64,000 bases of DNA. It comes from Opitutaceae bacterium. Its GTDB lineage: Bacteria; Verrucomicrobiota; Verrucomicrobiia; Opitutales; Opitutaceae. The DNA is taken from assembly GCA_027482185.1 (NCBI GenBank), contig JAIXWF010000015.1:434001-498000 (forward strand). The letters are read 5' to 3'. The position numbers and the translations under genes are program-made. Numbering within the stretch: position 1 is the first letter of the stretch; every line of letters starts with the position of its first letter. The notes under the pieces are model-generated. The model saw only the letters and a list, made by a program, of their open reading frames with translations. It did not search any database and was not told the origin of the DNA. This document shows positions 16,182 through 25,790 of the stretch, in pieces.

Positions 16182-16919
16182 ATGTTCACCATCATCGGCG
16201 GCGACGGCAAAGAGTACGGTCCCGTGACGGCGGATCAGGTCCGCGCCTGGATCGCGGGCGGCCGGGCCAACCTCGACACGCAGGCGAAGGCGGTCGGCTC
16301 CGACGAATGGCGCCGGCTCGGCGACTACGCCGAATTCGCGCCCGGCGGCGGCGTGCCGCCCCCGCCCTTGAGCGCACCGCCGTTCCCGGCCGCCGCCGCG
16401 CCCGCGGCCGCCGGCTTCACCGCCGCCGCCCCGACGACGCTCGTGCCCGCCGGCCGCATTGTCCGGCTCGGCGCCGCCGTCCTCGATTCGTTGCTGGCGT
16501 CGGTGGCGATCTTGCCCGGCATTTTGCTGATGGGCCCCTCTTTCCTCGCTCTGGTCACGGCCTACACCCGCGGCGAGCAGCCGGACATTGCGGCGATCGG
16601 CGGCGCCGGCCTCGTGCTCGGCGGCCTCGTCGCCGCCGCCGGCTGGTTCGTGCAGTTCGTGATCCAAGTTTGGCTGATCAGCACGCGCGGGCAGTCGATC
16701 GGCAAAAAGCTCCTCGGCATCCGGATCGTGAAGTTCGCGGACCACACCAACCCCGGCTTTCTGCACGGCTGGTTCCTGCGCAACTTCATCCGCGGCGTGA
16801 TCCAGATGGTGCCCTACATCGGCTTCGTCTTCGCCCTCGTCAACCTCGCGTTCATCTTCGGCGAGCAGCGCCGCTGCCTGCACGATCTCATCGCGGGCAC
16901 GAAGGTCGTGAACGCCTGA
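16182..16919 (+). CDS. GYF_2 plus RDD-domain membrane protein
   Basis: 245 residues. Residues 1-55 are a GYF_2-type domain (MFTIIGGDGKEYGPVTADQV, GDYAEF) of the sort that sits on the cytoplasmic side of many bacterial membrane proteins. A Pro/Ala linker follows, then an RDD domain with three to four transmembrane helices (IVRLGAAVLDSLLASVAIL; STRGQSIGKKLLGIRIV; EQRRCLHDLIAGTKVV). RDD proteins are proposed to be ion or solute transporters or scaffolds. Convergent with the buf-like operon, 19 bases apart. Confidence 0.85.
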   Translation: MFTIIGGDGKEYGPVTADQVRAWIAGGRANLDTQAKAVGSDEWRRLGDYAEFAPGGGVPPPPLSAPPFPAAAAPAAAGFTAAAPTTLVPAGRIVRLGAAVLDSLLASVAILPGILLMGPSFLALVTAYTRGEQPDIAAIGGAGLVLGGLVAAAGWFVQFVIQVWLISTRGQSIGKKLLGIRIVKFADHTNPGFLHGWFLRNFIRGVIQMVPYIGFVFALVNLAFIFGEQRRCLHDLIAGTKVVNA

Positions 16920-16938
16920 CGCGCCTCCGCGCGGCGGT

Positions 16939-17400
16939 TCACTTGCGGCCCAGGACGGCGTCGAGCGACAGCCGGCCCGGCCCGAAGGCGAACACGATCG
17001 CGCTCGCGAGCAGGAAGAGAAACGGCGCCGCCTCGGTGAACTTGTCCGGCTCGCCGGCGAACAGCGCCGCGGCCTCCGCGCGGTGCGCGGTCGCATAGGC
17101 CACCGCCATCGTCGCCAGCAGCGGCACGCTCGCGAGCCGCGCCCCGAGCCCCGCGAGGAGCAGCAACCCGCCGCCGCACTCGACGGCTCCGGCCAGAAAC
17201 GCGTTCACCTGCGGCAGCGGCAGGCCGAGCTCGGTGAAGAACGCCGTGGTCTGGCCGAGGTTCATCAGCTTGCCCTTGCCGGCGACGAAGAACGACCAGC
17301 CCCACCAGCCCCGCACCAGCAGCAGCAGGACGGGCTGCACCCACGTACCGGCGGTCACGGCAAGCGTTTCCAATTTGGACCAAAGCGCGGCGAATTTCAT
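16939..17400 (-). CDS. DoxX-family membrane protein of the bufferin-type operon
   Basis: 153 residues, four predicted transmembrane helices with the DoxX pattern (PVLLLLVRGWWGWSFFVAGKGKLMN, AFLAGAVECGGGLLLLAGLG, TEAAPFLFLLASAIVFAFGPG). It follows the DUF2063 gene by 46 bases on the same strand. DoxX-like proteins are frequent fourth members (BufD/HvfD) of MNIO operons and are thought to act in membrane redox or handling of the modified peptide. Assignment rests on family plus context. It faces the RDD gene convergently. Confidence 0.8.
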   Translation of the reverse strand: MKFAALWSKLETLAVTAGTWVQPVLLLLVRGWWGWSFFVAGKGKLMNLGQTTAFFTELGLPLPQVNAFLAGAVECGGGLLLLAGLGARLASVPLLATMAVAYATAHRAEAAALFAGEPDKFTEAAPFLFLLASAIVFAFGPGRLSLDAVLGRK

Positions 17401-17446
17401 GCGGATGGGAGGGCCGCGCGGCGGAAACATTCCCGAAGCACGGGAT

Positions 17447-18397
17447 TTAATTTTTCCCGCGCGCGCAGAACCAACCGAAGCCCATCCACGCGGCGAACCA
17501 CGCCTGCACCTGCGCCGGCCGCACGCGCGGGCCGCCGGCGGCCACCGCGGCCGCGAGGGTCCGGCCCGCCGCCAGCGCGGACAGGATGCGGCAGGCCGCG
17601 GGTTCGAGCCGCTTGTAATACAGGCGGTTGTCCAGGCGGTGGACGGCCACATACACGCGCTGCCGCCGCGGCCGCGCCACCCGGCGGGCGGCGGCCCGCG
17701 ACGCCACCCCGTCGACCGCATGGCTCGCCGCGGAGCGGAGCGCGTCCCGCTGCTTCACCGCGAGCACGTAGTCGTCCACCGGCCACGCGGCCGTGAGCAG
17801 AGTCACATAGGGCTGCAGGCGGAGCCGGAGCCGCGTCGGCGCCGCGCCCGCGATGTCCGCCGCCCCGAGCACCGGCCGCGCCTCGCCGTCGAAAGCCACC
17901 GTCTGCGCCCATTCGAAATCCGCGACCGCCGCGGCGAAAGCCGCATGCCGCCCGGCCCACCGCGGGTGCGCCCGCAGGAAAGCCGGCAGGCGCGCGCAGA
18001 GATTCCGCAACGTGAACGACCGCGACGGCTGCGCCGCCAGGTAGGCGCGCACCAGCGCGTCGAATCGCCGCTCGCCCAGCAAAGCCCGCAGCCCGGGCGC
18101 ATCCTCGTGCACGCAGTCGATGAGCCGGAACCAATAGCTGCGGCTGTAGATCTGCAGGCGCTCGAAGGGACTGATCCGTCCGCCCGGCCGGATGACCTCG
18201 GCGGCGACCTCCGCCATCGGCCGGCCGTCGAGCCAGCGCGGCTGCAGTCCGTCCGAAGGTGTCAGCGGCCGCACCAGCGCGTGCAGCATCCAGCGCTGCA
18301 GGGCCCGCAGGTCGGCGTCGGTCCGCAGCGCCGCCGGCACGCGCCGCGGCGGCGGCCGAAGCCCGGCGGGAGGCGCGGGGACGCGGCGGCGCTTCAT
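17447..18397 (-). CDS. bufC: DUF2063 partner protein (BufC-like) of the MNIO RiPP operon
   Basis: 316 residues. The N-terminal half carries the DUF2063 signature (LRALQRWMLHALVRPL, GRISPFERLQIYSRSYWFRL, DCVHEDAPGLRALLGERRFD, LVRAYLAAQPSRSFTLRNL), and the rest is a second helical region. In MNIO systems this partner binds the precursor peptide and presents it to the enzyme. Its ATG overlaps the TGA of the MNIO gene (ATGA, 4 bp), so the two are translationally coupled. A basic, Pro-rich extension of about 20 residues at the N-terminus is unusual. Confidence 0.87.
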   Translation of the reverse strand: MKRRRVPAPPAGLRPPPRRVPAALRTDADLRALQRWMLHALVRPLTPSDGLQPRWLDGRPMAEVAAEVIRPGGRISPFERLQIYSRSYWFRLIDCVHEDAPGLRALLGERRFDALVRAYLAAQPSRSFTLRNLCARLPAFLRAHPRWAGRHAAFAAAVADFEWAQTVAFDGEARPVLGAADIAGAAPTRLRLRLQPYVTLLTAAWPVDDYVLAVKQRDALRSAASHAVDGVASRAAARRVARPRRQRVYVAVHRLDNRLYYKRLEPAACRILSALAAGRTLAAAVAAGGPRVRPAQVQAWFAAWMGFGWFCARGKN

Positions 18398-19245
18398 CGC
18401 GGGTCCGCGGCGCGCGCGCCGGCGAGGTAGGTGTCGGCCTTCAGCGCCTCGGCATGGACTTCGTCGAACGACGGGATTTTGTCGTCCCACTCGAGCAACG
18501 TCGCCGTCACGCCCGCCCCGCGGATCGCGCGGTCGTAGAGCCGCCAGACCGGGTCGGGCACGGGGTGGTCGTGCGTATCCAGAATGTAATGCTCGAAGCG
18601 CGTGTGGCCGGCGACGTGGATCTGGCCGACGCGGTCGAGCGGCACGCCGCGGAGGTAATCCAACGGGTCGAAACCGTGGTTCTCCGACGAGACGTAGATG
18701 TTGTTCACGTCGAGCAGGATTCCGCAGTCGGCCTGCTCGGCGACTTCGGCGAGGAATTCCCATTCCGCCATCTCGCTGGCGTTGAACTCGGCGTAGCTGC
18801 TGACGTTCTCGACGCAGATCGGCACCTCGAGAAAATCGCGCACTTCGCGGATCTTCCCGGCGGTGCGGCGGGCGGCGGAAAACGTGTAGGGCATCGGCAG
18901 CAGGTCGTGCGAATACGTGCCGTCGACGCTGCCCCAGCAAAGATGGTCGGAAAGCCACGGCGTGCGCGTGCGGCGCACGAGCGCCTTGAGTTTCCGCAGG
19001 TGCGCGCGGTCGGGCCGGTCGGCGGATCCGAAATAGAGCGACACGCCGTGCTGCACGACGCGGTACTGCTCGAGGATCCGGTCGAGCACTTCGAGCGGCC
19101 GGCCGCCGTCGACCATGAAGTTTTCGGAAATGATCTCGAACCACGCGCAGACGGGTTTGCGCTCGAGGATATGCCGGTAGTGCGGCACGCGCAGCCCGAG
19201 GCCGATGCCGTAGTCGGTGAAACCGTTGAAGCGGTTGGCGGGCAT
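18394..19245 (-). CDS. bufB: DUF692 multinuclear iron oxidase (MNIO), BufB-like RiPP-modifying enzyme
   Basis: 283 residues, a TIM-barrel of the DUF692/MNIO family. Family motifs are all visible: GLRVPHYRHIL, FEIISENFM, HGVSLYFGS, LSDHLCW, ENVSSYAEF, LLDVNNIYVSSENHGFDP, IHVAGH, THDHPVPDPVW and LLEWDD, providing the His/Asp/Glu ligands for two or three iron ions. MNIO enzymes oxidise cysteines of a co-encoded peptide, for example to thiooxazole or oxazolone-thioamide groups that bind copper. ATG at 19245 is 80 bases after the Cys-rich precursor gene. The longer upstream reading frame overlaps that gene and is not used. Confidence 0.93.
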   Translation of the reverse strand: MPANRFNGFTDYGIGLGLRVPHYRHILERKPVCAWFEIISENFMVDGGRPLEVLDRILEQYRVVQHGVSLYFGSADRPDRAHLRKLKALVRRTRTPWLSDHLCWGSVDGTYSHDLLPMPYTFSAARRTAGKIREVRDFLEVPICVENVSSYAEFNASEMAEWEFLAEVAEQADCGILLDVNNIYVSSENHGFDPLDYLRGVPLDRVGQIHVAGHTRFEHYILDTHDHPVPDPVWRLYDRAIRGAGVTATLLEWDDKIPSFDEVHAEALKADTYLAGARAADPR

Positions 19246-19325
19246 GGCCGGAGCGAAATGGCGGATTCGGAAAACGGAAAAACGCGGCCGGCTCCCGGCG
19301 CCGGCCGCGGGCCCCCTGAAAGCGA

Positions 19326-19595
19326 TCAGCTCTTCTTCGGCTCCGGCTTCTTCTCCATCGTGGAGCAGCCGCCCTTGCCCTTGCAGGAATTCTTGGACTT
19401 GCAGCCGTTGTCGCCGGCCTTGCAGCCGCCCTGGCCCTTGCAGGCGTTCTTGCCCTTGCAGTCGTGTTTGCCGGCGTCGGATTTCTGCACGGTCTTGCCG
19501 GCGGTCTCGGCGGCGAGGGCGCGGGAAGCAAGCGCACCGGAATAGAGGCCGGCCACGGCGGCGGCGGTGATGAGGAGGCGGGTGGATTTGGTCAT
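19326..19595 (-). CDS. bufA: Bufferin-type Cys-rich RiPP precursor (BufA2-like)
   Basis: 89 residues from ATG 19595. Signal peptide LLITAAAVAGLYSGALASRA followed by AAETAGK, then a core with six cysteines arranged as two matching units, DCKGKNACKGQGGC and GCKSKNSCKGKGGC, and a Lys/Pro tail. The CKGxNxCKGxGGC pattern is that of the BufA2 class of precursors modified by MNIO enzymes. The modified peptide is expected to be exported to the periplasm and bind copper. First gene of the four-gene operon. No copper-responsive operator could be recognised upstream in 19596-19748. Confidence 0.85.
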   Translation of the reverse strand: MTKSTRLLITAAAVAGLYSGALASRALAAETAGKTVQKSDAGKHDCKGKNACKGQGGCKAGDNGCKSKNSCKGKGGCSTMEKKPEPKKS

Positions 19596-19748
19596 GGGGA
19601 GGAACGGACGGAGGTTGGAACCGCGCCGCCGCACCATGCGACGAACCGCGGACGCACATCAGAGCAACCGCCGCCGCGTTTATTCCGCGGCCGCCGAAAA
19701 AATCCTCCGCCCCCGCGGCATCCGGGATTCGGATACCACCGTGCCGGC

Positions 19749-19780
19749 AAAAAAAGCGGGGCGGGTTTGCACCCGCCCCG
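19749..19780 (-). terminator. Intrinsic terminator of the three-repeat protein gene
   Basis: A 10-bp perfect stem (CGGGGCGGGT 19757-19766 / ACCCGCCCCG 19771-19780) with loop TTGC. Read on the minus strand it is followed by seven T residues (19755-19749). It lies 8 bases past the stop at 19789 and insulates the buf-like promoter region from the gene upstream. Confidence 0.9.
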
Positions 19781-19788
19781 GAGCGAAA

Positions 19789-21561
19789 TCACTCGGCTTT
19801 TTTGCCGCGGCCGCGACCGCCGCGGCGGGACGGCTTCTTGTCGCCGTCGGCTTCGCCGCCTTCGGCCGCGTCGTCTTCCTCGTCGCCCGCCTCGTCCTCT
19901 TCGCCGACCTTGTCGGCGAATTTCGACGCTTTGGCGTTGAGCCAGAGGTCGCCGCGGCCGTTGCGGTTGAACCAGAAGATCTCGCCGGCGTGCTCGACGA
20001 ACACGGGCTTCTCGCGCGGCTTCTCCGGCACCTTCAGGCCGACGGCCACGAGCGTGGCGACGAGGTCGTCGACCGGCTTGTTGAGATCTTCGGCGAGCCG
20101 CTCGGCCTTGCCGGCAAACGCGCCCGTCTTCGTCTCCTTCAACAGCAGACGGATACCGGCGAGCACGCTGTCGCCCACCGGGGCGGCCGGAGCAGCCGGA
20201 GCGGCGGATGATTCAGCGGACGCAGCCGGAACGTCGGTTGCCACGGGAGCCACGGCAGGCTCCGCGGCCGGCGCGGAGTCGGAAGCCGGGGCGGCCGGCG
20301 CGCCATCGGGCGCGGGCGCCTGGCCATCGGGGGCCGGAGCTGCGCCGGCTTCGGCGCCGGCCGGAGCCGCCGCATCGCTGGCCGCGGCCGCGGCGGCGGT
20401 TTCGCCGCCCTTCTTTTCGCGGCCGTTGATCCAGAGGCCGCCGCGGGAATCGAGATTGAGCCACCAGAGCTCGTTGCCGAATTCCGAATACACGGGCTTG
20501 TCGGCCGCGGCGGCGGGAATCGTCAGGCCGAGGGAGGCAAACGCCGTCTTGAGTTCGGCTTCGTTGGTGCGCAGCGCCCGCGAGAGGAAACTCGCGCTGC
20601 CCGAACCGCCGGGGCCGCGCCGGTTGCGGCGCATGTGCGGACGGATCTTGGCGAGCAATTCGGCACCGGCCGGCAACGGCGCCGGAGGAATTTCGGATTT
20701 CGGAGTGCGGGTTGCGGATTGCGAACTTTCGGCCTCGGACGGCGTTCCGTTTTCGGCCAATTCCGGTTTCCGGTCTCCGACTTCGGCATTCGGGTTGGCC
20801 GGCGCCGGGGCCTTGGCGGGATCTTCCTCGATCACGATCCGCTGGGCCTTGACGGAACGGAACACCGGACGCGGCTTTTCCTTGGTGTTGATCCAAAGTT
20901 CGCCGCGGCGGTTGATGTTCAGCCAATAAAGATCGCCGTCGTATTCGATGTGCTCGGGCTTGGAATCCTCGTCGATCGGCAGCACGAAGCCGCACTCCAC
21001 GAGTGCACCCTTGAGGTCCTCTTCGGCCTGGTCCCATTTCTTGGCCAGATAATCGACGCCGACGGACATGCCCGGGCCGCGTTGGTTGCGGCGCATGTGC
21101 GGTTTGATCGCATCGAAAAACGTCGGCAGCTCGTCTTCCTCGGCCGTGAGCTTGTCCCACTCGTCCTTCTCCTCTTCCGCGACCTCGGGATCGTCGTCGC
21201 GGGACGTGTCGACCGGCTTGCGGAAACCGTCGTCGGGCGCGGTCTTTTCCTCGAGGAAACTCGGGGCGCGTTCCTCGGCGGGCGCGGGCTGGTTGGCGGC
21301 CTTGAATTTGGCCTCGAACTCGGCGCGCAGTTTCTCGGCCTCGGCCTTCGCGGCGGCCGCGGCGGCGTCCTGGAGCGTCCAGTCGCGCTGCGTCGAGCGC
21401 CGGGCCAAGCCCGTGAACGCCAGAAAGTTGTCCGGATGCGGCTGGAACTGGATGATCTCCCACTCTTCGCGGCCGAGATCGTTCAGAAATTTTTCCAGCA
21501 AGGCGGGCGTGGCGAATCCGCCTTTGCCGCTCGTGATGACCTTGTATTCCCAAAGTGACAT
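19789..21561 (-). CDS. Three-repeat protein with DUF4177-like N-terminus
   Basis: 590 residues. Residues 1-61 (MSLWEYKVITSGKGGFATPA, then GREEWEIIQFQ) resemble DUF4177. Three copies of an approximately 85-residue unit follow at about 145-228, 298-384 and 462-547. The first two share PHMRRNxRGPG, and all end in a (Y/W/F)WLNxxxRGxLWxN motif; the third is more diverged. Linkers are Ala/Pro-rich and the C-terminus is acidic then basic (SRRGGRGRGKK), suggesting nucleic-acid or ribosome contact. I do not recognise the unit by name. The linker at residues 257-291 is encoded by a heptamer repeat array. Function unknown. Confidence 0.75.
   Translation of the reverse strand: MSLWEYKVITSGKGGFATPALLEKFLNDLGREEWEIIQFQPHPDNFLAFTGLARRSTQRDWTLQDAAAAAAKAEAEKLRAEFEAKFKAANQPAPAEERAPSFLEEKTAPDDGFRKPVDTSRDDDPEVAEEEKDEWDKLTAEEDELPTFFDAIKPHMRRNQRGPGMSVGVDYLAKKWDQAEEDLKGALVECGFVLPIDEDSKPEHIEYDGDLYWLNINRRGELWINTKEKPRPVFRSVKAQRIVIEEDPAKAPAPANPNAEVGDRKPELAENGTPSEAESSQSATRTPKSEIPPAPLPAGAELLAKIRPHMRRNRRGPGGSGSASFLSRALRTNEAELKTAFASLGLTIPAAAADKPVYSEFGNELWWLNLDSRGGLWINGREKKGGETAAAAAASDAAAPAGAEAGAAPAPDGQAPAPDGAPAAPASDSAPAAEPAVAPVATDVPAASAESSAAPAAPAAPVGDSVLAGIRLLLKETKTGAFAGKAERLAEDLNKPVDDLVATLVAVGLKVPEKPREKPVFVEHAGEIFWFNRNGRGDLWLNAKASKFADKVGEEDEAGDEEDDAAEGGEADGDKKPSRRGGRGRGKKAE
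20690..20793. repeat. Heptamer repeat array inside a coding region
   Basis: On the coding (minus) strand the array reads CGCAATC CGCAACC CGCACTC CGAAATC CGAAATT, and further upstream GAGACCG GAAACCG, with TC (or GA) at the same phase as in the intergenic arrays. It encodes the linker between the first and second repeats of the 590-residue protein. Confidence 0.75.
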
Positions 21562-24013: not shown

Positions 24014-24097
24014 TACGACATCCAAGCGTGCCTTTTCGCGCGTATGGGTTTTGCTGCGAGCGGCGGAATAAACCGCCGCCCCACGCCTCCCATCCCC

Positions 24098-25090
24098 ATG
24101 CTGATCCGCGTCCCGAAGTCCTGGGAACTCCCCGAGTCCGCCGCCACGCCCGAGAGCGCCTACCTGCTCCGGCCCAAGCCCGTCGTCCCGCGCCGCGATT
24201 TCCTCAAGACGATCGGCACCGGCGCCGCCGGCCTTGCCGCGGCCTCGTTGCTGCCTTCGTCCCTCCGCGGCGCGACCGCCGGTTTCCCGACCAAGGTCAA
24301 CCCGGCCCACCGCGATCCCGCGCTCAAGCCGACATCGTACGAGCTCATCACCAGCTACAACAACTTCTACGAATTCGGCACCGACAAGGCCGACCCCAAG
24401 CCGAATTCCCAAGGTTGGAAAACGGAACCGTGGACCGTCGAGATCGGCGGCCTGATCAACAACCCCGTCAAAATCGACGCCAACGACCTCGTCATGAAGA
24501 TGGGCGGCGTCGAACAGCGCGTGTACCGTTTCCGCTGCGTCGAAGCCTGGTCGATGGTGATTCCCTGGGACGGATTCCCGCTGTCCAAGCTGATCGCGTT
24601 CGCCGATCCGAAACCGGAGGCGAAGTTCATCACGTTCACCACCTTCAACGATCCGAAAAACGTCCCCGGCCAGCGCCGCCCCGCGCTCGACTGGCCCTAC
24701 TTCGAAGGCCTGCGCCTCGACGAGGCCAACCACGATCTCTCCTTCATCGCCACCGGCATCTACGGCAAACCGATCCCCAACCAGAACGGCGCCCCGCTCC
24801 GCCTCGTCGTGCCGTGGAAGTACGGTTTCAAGTACGGGAAATCGATCGTGAAGATCGACTTCGTCGCCAAGCAGCCCCGCAACACGTGGCAGGTCATGGC
24901 GGCCAACGAATACGGCTTCTACGCCAACGTGAATCCCACCGTCGACCACCCGCGCTGGTCCCAGGCCAGCGAGCGCGTGATCGGCGAGGGCGGCGCCTTC
25001 GGCCGCCGGCAACGCACCCTCATGTTCAACGGCTACGAGAAGGAAGTCGCCGCCCTCTACAAGGGCATGGACCTCGCGAAATTCTACTGA
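24098..25090 (+). CDS. msrP: MsrP (YedY), periplasmic methionine-sulfoxide reductase catalytic subunit
   Basis: 330 residues. Tat signal RRDFLKTIGTGAAG (Arg32-Arg33), exported folded with molybdenum cofactor. The Mo-binding cysteine is Cys147 in YRFRCVEAWSMVIPW. Conserved GLRLDEANHDLSFIATGIYG and WKYGFKYGKSIVKI follow. It reduces oxidised methionines in periplasmic proteins with electrons from MsrQ. msrQ is the next gene on the same strand, the standard arrangement. Length matches E. coli MsrP (334). Confidence 0.96.
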   Translation: MLIRVPKSWELPESAATPESAYLLRPKPVVPRRDFLKTIGTGAAGLAAASLLPSSLRGATAGFPTKVNPAHRDPALKPTSYELITSYNNFYEFGTDKADPKPNSQGWKTEPWTVEIGGLINNPVKIDANDLVMKMGGVEQRVYRFRCVEAWSMVIPWDGFPLSKLIAFADPKPEAKFITFTTFNDPKNVPGQRRPALDWPYFEGLRLDEANHDLSFIATGIYGKPIPNQNGAPLRLVVPWKYGFKYGKSIVKIDFVAKQPRNTWQVMAANEYGFYANVNPTVDHPRWSQASERVIGEGGAFGRRQRTLMFNGYEKEVAALYKGMDLAKFY

Positions 25091-25178
25091 GCCGCGGCCG
25101 CGTTGCCCGGACGGCACCGCCGTATCCGGATTTCGTTTACCGACGCGCGCCTTCGATTTGCCGATCCAACTTCCGCCC

Positions 25179-25790
25179 GTGCCCGCGAATCTGCTGCGTC
25201 GGAAATGGGTCGTCTGGGTGCTGCTCGTCGCGCCCGGGATCTGGGCCCTGTGGCCGCTCTTCCGCCCGAGCCCGAGCGACGCCGATCCGCTCAAGTCCGC
25301 GCTGCTCCACCTCGGGCTCGTCGCCGCGATCTTGCTCGCGGTCGTGCTCACGTTTTCGCCCCTGCGCGTGCTGTGGCCGAAATGGGATGTCGCCCAGGCA
25401 CTCAACCGCCACCGCCGGCTCGTCGGCGTCGCCGTCTTCGCCTACGCCCTGCTCCACGTCGTCGCCCACACGCTGCACGTCTACGACGGCGGCTTCGCGA
25501 CGCTGCTGAAAGAGCTGCAAAAACCTTTCCAGCTCACCGGCCTCGTCGCCTTCGCCATCCTCTTTGTGCTGACGGTCACGAGCCTCGACGCCGCGATCCG
25601 CCGCCTCGGCGGCAAGCGTTGGAAAAACCTGCACCGCTTCGTCTACCTCGCCGCCGCGCTCACGATCTACCATCAGGCCGCGGCGCGAAAAATCTTCCCG
25701 CTGCAGGTGGTGTGGATCTTCGGCCCCGTGCTCGTGCTTCAGGCCGCGCGCTGGTGGCGCGTCCGGAGAAACAAAACCGCGACCGCGTAG
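25179..25790 (+). CDS. msrQ: MsrQ (YedZ), heme-binding membrane subunit
   Basis: 203 residues if GTG 25179 is used; a TTG at 25158 would add seven residues. About six transmembrane helices of the ferric-reductase-like family, with heme-ligand histidines in LNRHRRLVGV, ALLHVVAHTLH, KNLHRFVYL and IYHQAAARK. It passes electrons from the cytoplasm or quinones to MsrP. It follows msrP by 88 bases and ends facing uxaC. Confidence 0.93.
   Translation: MPANLLRRKWVVWVLLVAPGIWALWPLFRPSPSDADPLKSALLHLGLVAAILLAVVLTFSPLRVLWPKWDVAQALNRHRRLVGVAVFAYALLHVVAHTLHVYDGGFATLLKELQKPFQLTGLVAFAILFVLTVTSLDAAIRRLGGKRWKNLHRFVYLAAALTIYHQAAARKIFPLQVVWIFGPVLVLQAARWWRVRRNKTATA

Follow-up and report, generated by a model that had tools for sequence, protein, structure and literature searches.

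What would a bacterium of the Verrucomicrobiota protect itself against with a bufferin-type peptide, and what would switch the genes for that peptide on? The question is raised by a stretch of 64,000 nucleotides from an Opitutaceae bacterium (NCBI GenBank assembly GCA_027482185.1, contig JAIXWF010000015.1, positions 434,001 to 498,000 of the forward strand), called the window here, in which four minus-strand genes at 16939-19595 encode a bufferin-type precursor (bufA), an MNIO enzyme (bufB), a DUF2063 partner (bufC) and a DoxX protein, in that order. The reading that we favor, with a probability of about 0.7, is that these genes form a Buf2-type bufferin operon under the control of an extracytoplasmic function (ECF) sigma factor that is shared with msrPQ and an exported MsrA. 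The operon itself is known in kind. What is new is the ECF-type element before it, the gene set that it shares with methionine-sulfoxide repair, and the finding that in related lineages a sigma/anti-sigma pair is encoded close to operons of this kind. Published work is cited by PubMed Central number.

The operon and its products

The sequence-only reading of the window had described a bufferin-type operon of four tightly ordered minus-strand genes in a probable verrucomicrobium, and the open reading frames bear this out in position and strand, with an opitutaceous host. bufA (19326..19595, minus strand) encodes 89 amino acids, with a Sec-type signal peptide, recognized by eye and by its conserved leader, followed by six cysteines spaced 6, 6, 7, 6 and 6; both the length and the cysteine count are those first reported. 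Two CKGxNxCKGxGGC units had been claimed as well. There are indeed two cysteine units, CKGKNACKGQGGC and CKSKNSCKGKGGC, the second of which departs from the exact motif. bufB (18394..19245, minus strand) encodes a 283-residue MNIO (DUF692) enzyme that scores 347 bits against PF05114 (MbnB_TglH_ChrH) and 337.4 bits against NF050167 (MNIO_BufB, cut-off 310), which makes it an MNIO of the bufferin maturase type. bufC (17447..18397, minus strand; 316 residues) matches PF09836 with 60.9 bits (cut-off 27.2) and shares the ATGA at 18394-18397 with bufB, a 4-bp overlap. The last gene, doxX (16939..17400, minus strand; ATG at 17400), encodes a 153-residue membrane protein that matches PF07681 with 69.3 bits (cut-off 23.6). 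Gaps of 80 nt and 46 nt separate bufA from bufB and bufC from doxX, respectively, and all four frames are open. Profile searches of the window's genome returned a single match each for MNIO, DUF2063 and BufA2. A six-cysteine precursor with a signal peptide directly precedes the MNIO gene, as in Buf2, and the operon, judged from its sequence, is of the Buf2 or "Cys-Lys" type, a kind already known.

The Protein Data Bank (PDB) entry nearest to the MNIO by sequence is 3bww, followed by entries for TglH and MbnB. These matches and the profile scores exclude a TIM barrel outside the MNIO family, the alternative that had been raised for this product. Across 128 aligned sequences, 33 positions occupied by His, Asp, Glu or Asn show a conservation of at least 98%, including D179, N181, N182, D223 and H225. 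Asn, Asp and His residues are essential in HvfB (PMC13419390), and our own motif-based mapping places their counterparts among these conserved positions. MNIOs of the Cys-Lys class carry Asp at the site of FonB Phe250 (PMC13097082). Here, D254 (at least 98% conserved) is followed by D255, which pairs with the Phe of the ERDF motif in the 3bww alignment; by our own mapping, this column would be that of FonB Phe250.

The bufC product was modeled with AlphaFold2 at a mean confidence (pLDDT) of 91.9. A PDB sequence search with this protein gave 0 matches, and comparison of the model with PDB folds gave three at E <= 0.001, namely the TglI chains 8hci_A and 8hi7_A and NGO1945 (3dee). TglI and NGO1945 serve as references for the fold of MNIO partners (PMC12452194). 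Thus, on the PF09836 and fold matches, a PME-type 1 partner, consisting of DUF2063 and an RRE-like domain, is encoded after the MNIO gene.

Three other assignments were tried and rejected. The MbnB model gives the MNIO 32.8 of the 325 bits expected for methanobactin, the precursor has no Pfam match such as a Buf1 (DUF2282) assignment calls for, and the MNIO reaches 237 bits against the HvfB cut-off of 360 in the case of an oxazolin system.

The promoter-like element, its other sites and a candidate sigma factor

A two-part element, GGAATA-N16-CTCTGAT (19658..19686, minus strand), lies 62 nt from the bufA ATG and is predicted to be an ECF-type promoter. It resembles the E. coli sigmaE-type promoter, GGAACTT-N16-TCTGA. 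Within the family, GGAATA-N16/17-CTC is found upstream of bufA in 36 of 42 loci (45 less L062, L071 and L089), compared with a mean of 0.075 and a maximum of 1 in first-order Markov resamples that allowed spacings of 16-19; some of the loci are close relatives and therefore not all are independent. Positions that the search did not request are nevertheless fixed, with the A of CTCNNA present in 36/36 and a T or C behind it in 35/36. Among named records, some of which are the same genomes as those in our family set, the element is present in 28/43 Verrucomicrobiota upstream regions and in 0/27 from Acidobacteriota. Conversely, CTGTWACC occurs upstream in 13/27 Acidobacteriota (shuffled, 0.11) and in 0/43 Verrucomicrobiota; these acidobacterial loci are L115, L116, L128, L133, L137, L144, L154, L155, L156, L166, L167, L172 and L173. 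The acidobacterial motif resembles the -35 sequence of Caulobacter sigmaF, GTAACC (PMC3511200).

Searching the window's own genome with GGAATA-N16/17-CTCYNA gave seven exact matches, compared with 0 for the reversed control, and five of the seven stand before gene starts. These are the starts of bufA, msrP, an exported MsrA, an exported Ig-domain protein, and an operon that encodes an exported AhpC/TSA protein, then an ECF sigma factor, then an anti-sigma-like membrane protein. The msrP copy falls in the window itself (24065..24093, plus strand), 4 nt before the ATG of msrP (24098..25090, plus strand), which encodes the catalytic subunit of a periplasmic methionine-sulfoxide reductase (NF003767, 434 bits, cut-off 207). 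An msrQ-like membrane subunit follows (25158..25790, plus strand; TTG start in the open reading frame list), with 60.1 bits against PF01794 (cut-off 28) and 89.9 bits against the MsrQ model NF003831, under its cut-off of 130. The gene for the Ig-domain protein (L232, 1717-3852, minus strand) begins a few bases behind the element.

We then extended the search to 42 genomes of our choice, 32 with an MNIO and 10 without, in which GGAATA-N16/17-CTCHNAY has 181 matches, compared with 25 for the reversed control. Sixty sites outside buf operons, picked among the matches listed, were followed to the genes behind them, and 44 of the 60 precede msrP, msrA, msrB, ECF operons, peroxiredoxin-like genes, doxX or a few DUF genes. 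The targets comprise msrP (nine, plus one distant molybdopterin enzyme), msrA (six), msrB (six), ECF operons (eight), peroxiredoxin-like genes (four, three of them at 25-30% identity), DoxX (two), DoxX-like (two), DUF1223 (two), DUF547 (three) and DUF3047 (one). Pfam matches underlie the calls for one MsrB, one DUF547, both DUF1223, the DUF3047 and, under cut-off, one DoxX-like protein; the remaining MsrB, DUF547 and DoxX-like calls were made by resemblance. The DUF1223 and DUF547 proteins behind the element in relatives are at L293, L295, L300, L303 and L308. doxX carries its own copy of the element in 9/35 operons. Two genomes without an MNIO, G413 and G421, have the element ahead of msrP and of ECF genes, and the bufferin thus appears to be an optional part of the regulon. 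The sites suggest that the bufA operon and genes for the repair of oxidized proteins are switched on together by one stress regulator.

A candidate for that regulator is the ECF sigma factor of the AhpC/TSA operon (C19:911698-912237), which is encoded elsewhere in the genome with the peroxiredoxin-like and anti-sigma-like proteins. Homologs of it are present in 33/38 genomes (E <= 1e-25), and an anti-sigma homolog lies downstream of the ECF gene in 30/30 retrieved loci. GGAATA-N16/17-CTCNNA, a pattern that we loosened once the result with the strict one (CTCHNAY) was known, occurs within 60 nt of the ECF start in 24/30 loci (shuffled, 0.002). As for the other six, the element stands before an upstream gene of the same run in L323, L344 and L350, has a spacing of 18 in L341, and is missing in L336 and L349. 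In fetched flanks, an ECF homolog (at least 40% identical) lies near the buf operon in 15/49 named Verrucomicrobiota loci, on the same strand in 14 and with the element in 10 of the 15. An ECF homolog is also near the operon in seven family regions (L048-L051, L060, L086 and L089), some of which are from the same genomes as the named loci, and seven acidobacterial loci have a distant ECF gene (25-31% identity) near the operon, as do some of those with CTGTWACC. The 33 genomes with the ECF gene have a mean of 4.8 element sites, compared with 2, 0, 6, 1 and 0 in the five that lack it (one-sided Mann-Whitney, 0.009). In all 46 rows of the anti-sigma comparison (46/46, with rows overlapping between two sets) we observed C-x13-C, by eye behind the membrane segment, which is plausibly a redox or metal sensor. 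The anti-sigma candidate gave no match to DUF1109/NrsF and matched DUF3379 (17.3 bits) and the antisigma model NF052375 (28.1 bits) under their cut-offs.

In the mechanism that we propose, transcription most likely starts behind GGAATA-N16-CTCTGAT, driven by this ECF sigma factor, which would also drive msrPQ and the exported MsrA. The precursor would be translated with its signal peptide attached, and the DUF2063/RRE partner may help bring that signal peptide to the iron enzyme. By analogy with studied relatives, the precursor's cysteines would be converted to thiooxazoles, for which an absorbance at about 305 nm is expected. The exported peptide would then chelate copper in the periplasm, with DoxX assisting in some way, and the outer cysteine pair of the anti-sigma protein perhaps senses copper and/or the oxidation of sulfur-containing residues. 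That the operon makes a periplasmic copper buffer, as the sequence-only reading proposed, is a fair inference by comparison with relatives that have been studied. Given a sigma factor shared with msrPQ and exported MsrA, the peptide would be one branch of a response of the cell envelope to copper, to sulfur-residue oxidation or to both.

The co-regulated gene set also fits oxidant stress, and the peptide might instead serve chiefly as a sink for oxidants or a store of thiols, acting against hypochlorous acid or a similar compound, since the genes putatively co-regulated with it (msrPQ, MsrA, peroxiredoxin-like) repair oxidized methionine and reduce peroxides. A known ECF/anti-sigma pair drives MsrPQ and a methionine-rich scavenger peptide under hypochlorous acid (PMC8315932), and oxidative stress has been named as an inducer of clusters like this one (PMC13097082). 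However, the bufferins that have been characterized are, like other thiooxazole peptides, copper binders (PMC12452194, PMC13097082), and the Cys-Lys core found here matches the copper-binding class, so we consider a role mainly as an oxidant sink unlikely.

The element could also belong to another regulator, whether an activator or a different sigma factor, with the ECF gene carrying it by coincidence. In six of the 30 ECF loci the start of the ECF gene is not directly preceded by the element, and sites occur in G130, where no ECF match was detected. On the other hand, the element is two-part, has the 16/17 spacing of ECF promoters and is rare in the genome. It precedes the ECF gene in most retrieved loci, that gene is close to the operon in several lineages, and sites are few where the gene is missing, except in G130. 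Another regulator of this sort seems improbable.

Several observations weigh against the reading of a Buf2-type operon under the ECF factor. With respect to identity, the precursor reaches 45.5 bits (E 6.6e-12) against the BufA2 equivalog model NF050166, under its cut-off of 60, so that of the profile searches proposed at the outset those for DUF692, DUF2063 and DoxX exceed their cut-offs and that for BufA2 does not. Among 288 genomes of the phylum, 0 pass this cut-off and 12 match below it. We therefore call the locus Buf2-type only, and not an NCBI BufA2 equivalog. Likewise, DoxX scores 66.9 bits against the HvfX-family model NF050144 (cut-off 80), and the DUF2063 partner 44.1 bits against the HvfC equivalog model (cut-off 142). 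With respect to the element, it is absent upstream of bufA in 6/42 family loci (L053, L054, L068, L074, L083 and L203), and the own-genome matches at C18:30460 and C19:505724, two of the seven, are unassigned; we take these two to be chance matches because no convincing gene start follows. Sixteen of the 60 followed sites have no assigned target, and the target classes were named after inspection, without a matched function control. With respect to the sigma factor, the strict pattern lies within 110 nt of the ECF start in only 10/30 loci, which is what led to its loosening, the ECF gene of the window's genome is not near the buf operon, and G130 has six sites and no ECF match at E 1e-25. Finally, 23/27 genomes of the genus, and 15/17 of the more complete ones, are MNIO-less.

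A candidate small hairpin lies in the bufA 5' leader (19596-19657, minus strand), about 35-55 nt before the ATG, and in the same place in relatives. The best stems of 57 bufA leaders came to 5.9, compared with 4.5 in shuffles. In an unconstrained alignment of 36 leaders, from which 8 long ones had been dropped, the paired fraction of the best stem was 0.72, within the range of 1000 arm shuffles (mean 0.65, maximum 0.748), and RNAalifold found no structure in the leader alignment.

Precursor cores, distribution and neighborhood

The two-unit core had been thought possibly specific to this lineage, a suggestion that does not hold. Among named loci collected by MNIO similarity, a pattern count found the six-cysteine, two-unit core in 42/49 from Verrucomicrobiota and 22/30 from Acidobacteriota, and not in the single locus without a phylum. 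Five acidobacterial precursors (L111, L152, L166, L168 and L172) have 4 or 5 cysteines, with the six-cysteine core partly changed or shortened, and those of L131 and L170 have, like lipoproteins, one more cysteine where the signal region ends (TGCS / TGCA).

Within the family, we compared the leaders and cores of 39 precursors including that of the window, taken from 47 rows after dropping L062 and L090-L093 (outside the set) and L055, L071 and L089 (starts truncated or misread). In the leader motif AAxAGLYAG, the AA, G, Y and G are each present in 39/39. This near-fixed leader fits a Sec signal that doubles as the leader, as cited in PMC13419390. The cores are more varied, with 4 cysteines in total in one precursor, 6 in 16, 7 in three, 8 in six, 9 in five, 10 in four and 11 in four. 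Two GGC units are found in 28/39 precursors, the window's plain six-cysteine form having two units as described above, and none in 11/39. Five of the 39 (L053, L077, L079, L082 and L088) are pure period-6 cysteine arrays of 7 or 9 cysteines, such as CKGKDGCKGKDGC, with repeats like CKGKDG or CKGKEG/CKAKES, no GGC, and the shared leader. Since 90% of published Buf2 precursors have 6 cysteines and the others 12, and unclassified ones have 1-18 (PMC12452194), these six-residue arrays extend the record in print. On a tree of the MNIOs, labels for extended cores require at least 12 changes, compared with a mean of 27.0 for shuffled labels, on a topology in which only 10/63 inner branches are starred. 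A search of plasmids with the precursor gave 0 matches, a search in which the low-complexity filter could mask such a sequence. At L062 (G064), an MNIO 51% identical to that of the window lies behind a long cysteine-containing protein with a TAT-like start, with no bufA match.

An MNIO over cut-off is present in 43/150 genomes drawn from the family, and in the genus in 4/27 genomes, or 2/17 of the more complete ones. We fetched 47 regions, several of which end at contig ends, and found an MNIO match in all of them except L094. Of the remaining 46, only L076 lacks a DUF2063 match and only L062 a precursor match, so that each is present in 45 and both together in 44; DoxX is present in 35 (upstream in L091). 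That the operon is inactive, or serves for gold, cadmium, chromium or mercury instead of copper, is suggested by this patchiness within the genus and by the discussion of other metals for bufferins (PMC12452194), and we regard it as highly doubtful, given four open frames, conserved residues of metal-ligand type and a retained promoter element.

The genes on either side had been proposed to form a neighborhood that may be lineage-specific. Convergent to the operon lies a gene for an RDD-type protein (16182..16919, plus strand), named from the earlier reading and not from an RDD profile, and upstream lies a gene for a protein with a DUF4177-like N terminus (19789..21561, minus strand; PF13783, 21 bits, just under the cut-off of 25). 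The RDD side recurs, in 14/46 operon regions, many of which end short, and the operon adjoins RDD in the congeners G417 and G432 as well as in G139. No DUF4177 match was found in the 46 operon regions, with about 2 kb upstream covered. The congener G413 has counterparts of both flanking proteins, with 88% (DUF4177) and 80% (RDD) identity to those of the window, and their genes are about 240 bp apart, with the operon absent; about 200 bp between them do not align, and 16920-19749 of the window, a stretch whose left edge is marked by the RDD gene, has no counterpart. A terminator-like hairpin with a T run, read from the sequence after the DUF4177 gene and before the buf operon (19749..19780, minus strand), is kept in G413, so the operon looks like a separate unit. 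Searches of 17 RDD regions from MNIO-less congeners found no match to the operon proteins. The simpler reading is that the operon was lost from an ancestral place beside RDD, gain being the alternative.

More broadly, we tentatively propose, at somewhat less than even odds for the whole, that a Verrucomicrobiota ECF/anti-sigma pair with an outer cysteine sensor drives periplasmic methionine repair and, optionally, a thiooxazole peptide, as a general defense against sulfur oxidation and not against copper only, and that in Opitutaceae one enzyme type and one leader serve cores ranging from six cysteines to pure six-residue CKGKDx-type arrays of 7-9 cysteines. Precursors with 4 to 11 cysteines on one leader offer a natural series for studying how an MNIO chooses its cysteines.

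Comparison with known systems

Most work on bufferins as copper peptides concerns Pseudomonadota. The window holds a Buf2-type operon of another phylum with a conserved ECF-type element. Its closest counterparts are the Buf2 operons (Buf_6/12Cys, BufA2), or Cys-Lys captophorins, which have the same order of six-cysteine signal-peptide precursor, MNIO, DUF2063 partner and DoxX, and whose BufB profile the MNIO passes. It differs from them in a precursor under the NF050166 cut-off and in the predicted ECF-type promoter; in the excerpts of PMC12452194, sigma factor genes are reported for Buf1 and not for Buf2. HvfABC (oxazolin) and the EGKCG captophorins likewise combine an MNIO, a DUF2063 protein and a precursor whose Sec signal is leader-like (PMC13419390), but their core is EGKCG (Lys-Cys) and that found here is CKGKx (Cys-Lys), and the MNIO falls short of the HvfB cut-off as described above. 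Six-cysteine DUF692/DUF2063 clusters are also on record from uncultured gammaproteobacteria (PMC8692599). In a literature search that covered few subscription journals, we recognized nothing on ECF control of verrucomicrobial bufferins among the matches listed.

With respect to regulation, the nearest likeness is to Caulobacter sigmaF/NrsF. There, sigmaF acts under chromium and cadmium and controls two operons with DUF692/DUF2063 genes, one of them with DoxX, together with YedY (MsrP) (PMC3511200), which parallels an element that stands before both bufA and msrP in the window and would act on both. The promoters differ, GTAACC-N16-CGAA in Caulobacter and GGAATA-N16-CTCTGAT here, and so do the anti-sigma proteins, the candidate here being without a DUF1109/NrsF match. 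MsrA, MsrB and peroxiredoxin-like genes join the set here, whereas msrA homologs were unchanged in the Caulobacter arrays (PMC3511200). The bcrS-abcS pair, for which the Azospira system is a named homolog, is an ECF/anti-sigma pair that drives periplasmic MsrPQ and a small peptide, as we propose here; that peptide is methionine-rich, and the excerpted text names no MNIO, with 0 occurrences of DUF692 and DUF2282 (PMC8315932). A link between MNIO-DUF2063 clusters and oxidative stress is already in print (PMC13097082). To this the window adds a candidate regulator, the element and further targets (msrP, msrA, msrB and peroxiredoxin-like genes), with a promoter different from that of Caulobacter, and with these in hand the question of what the bufferin protects against becomes directly testable.

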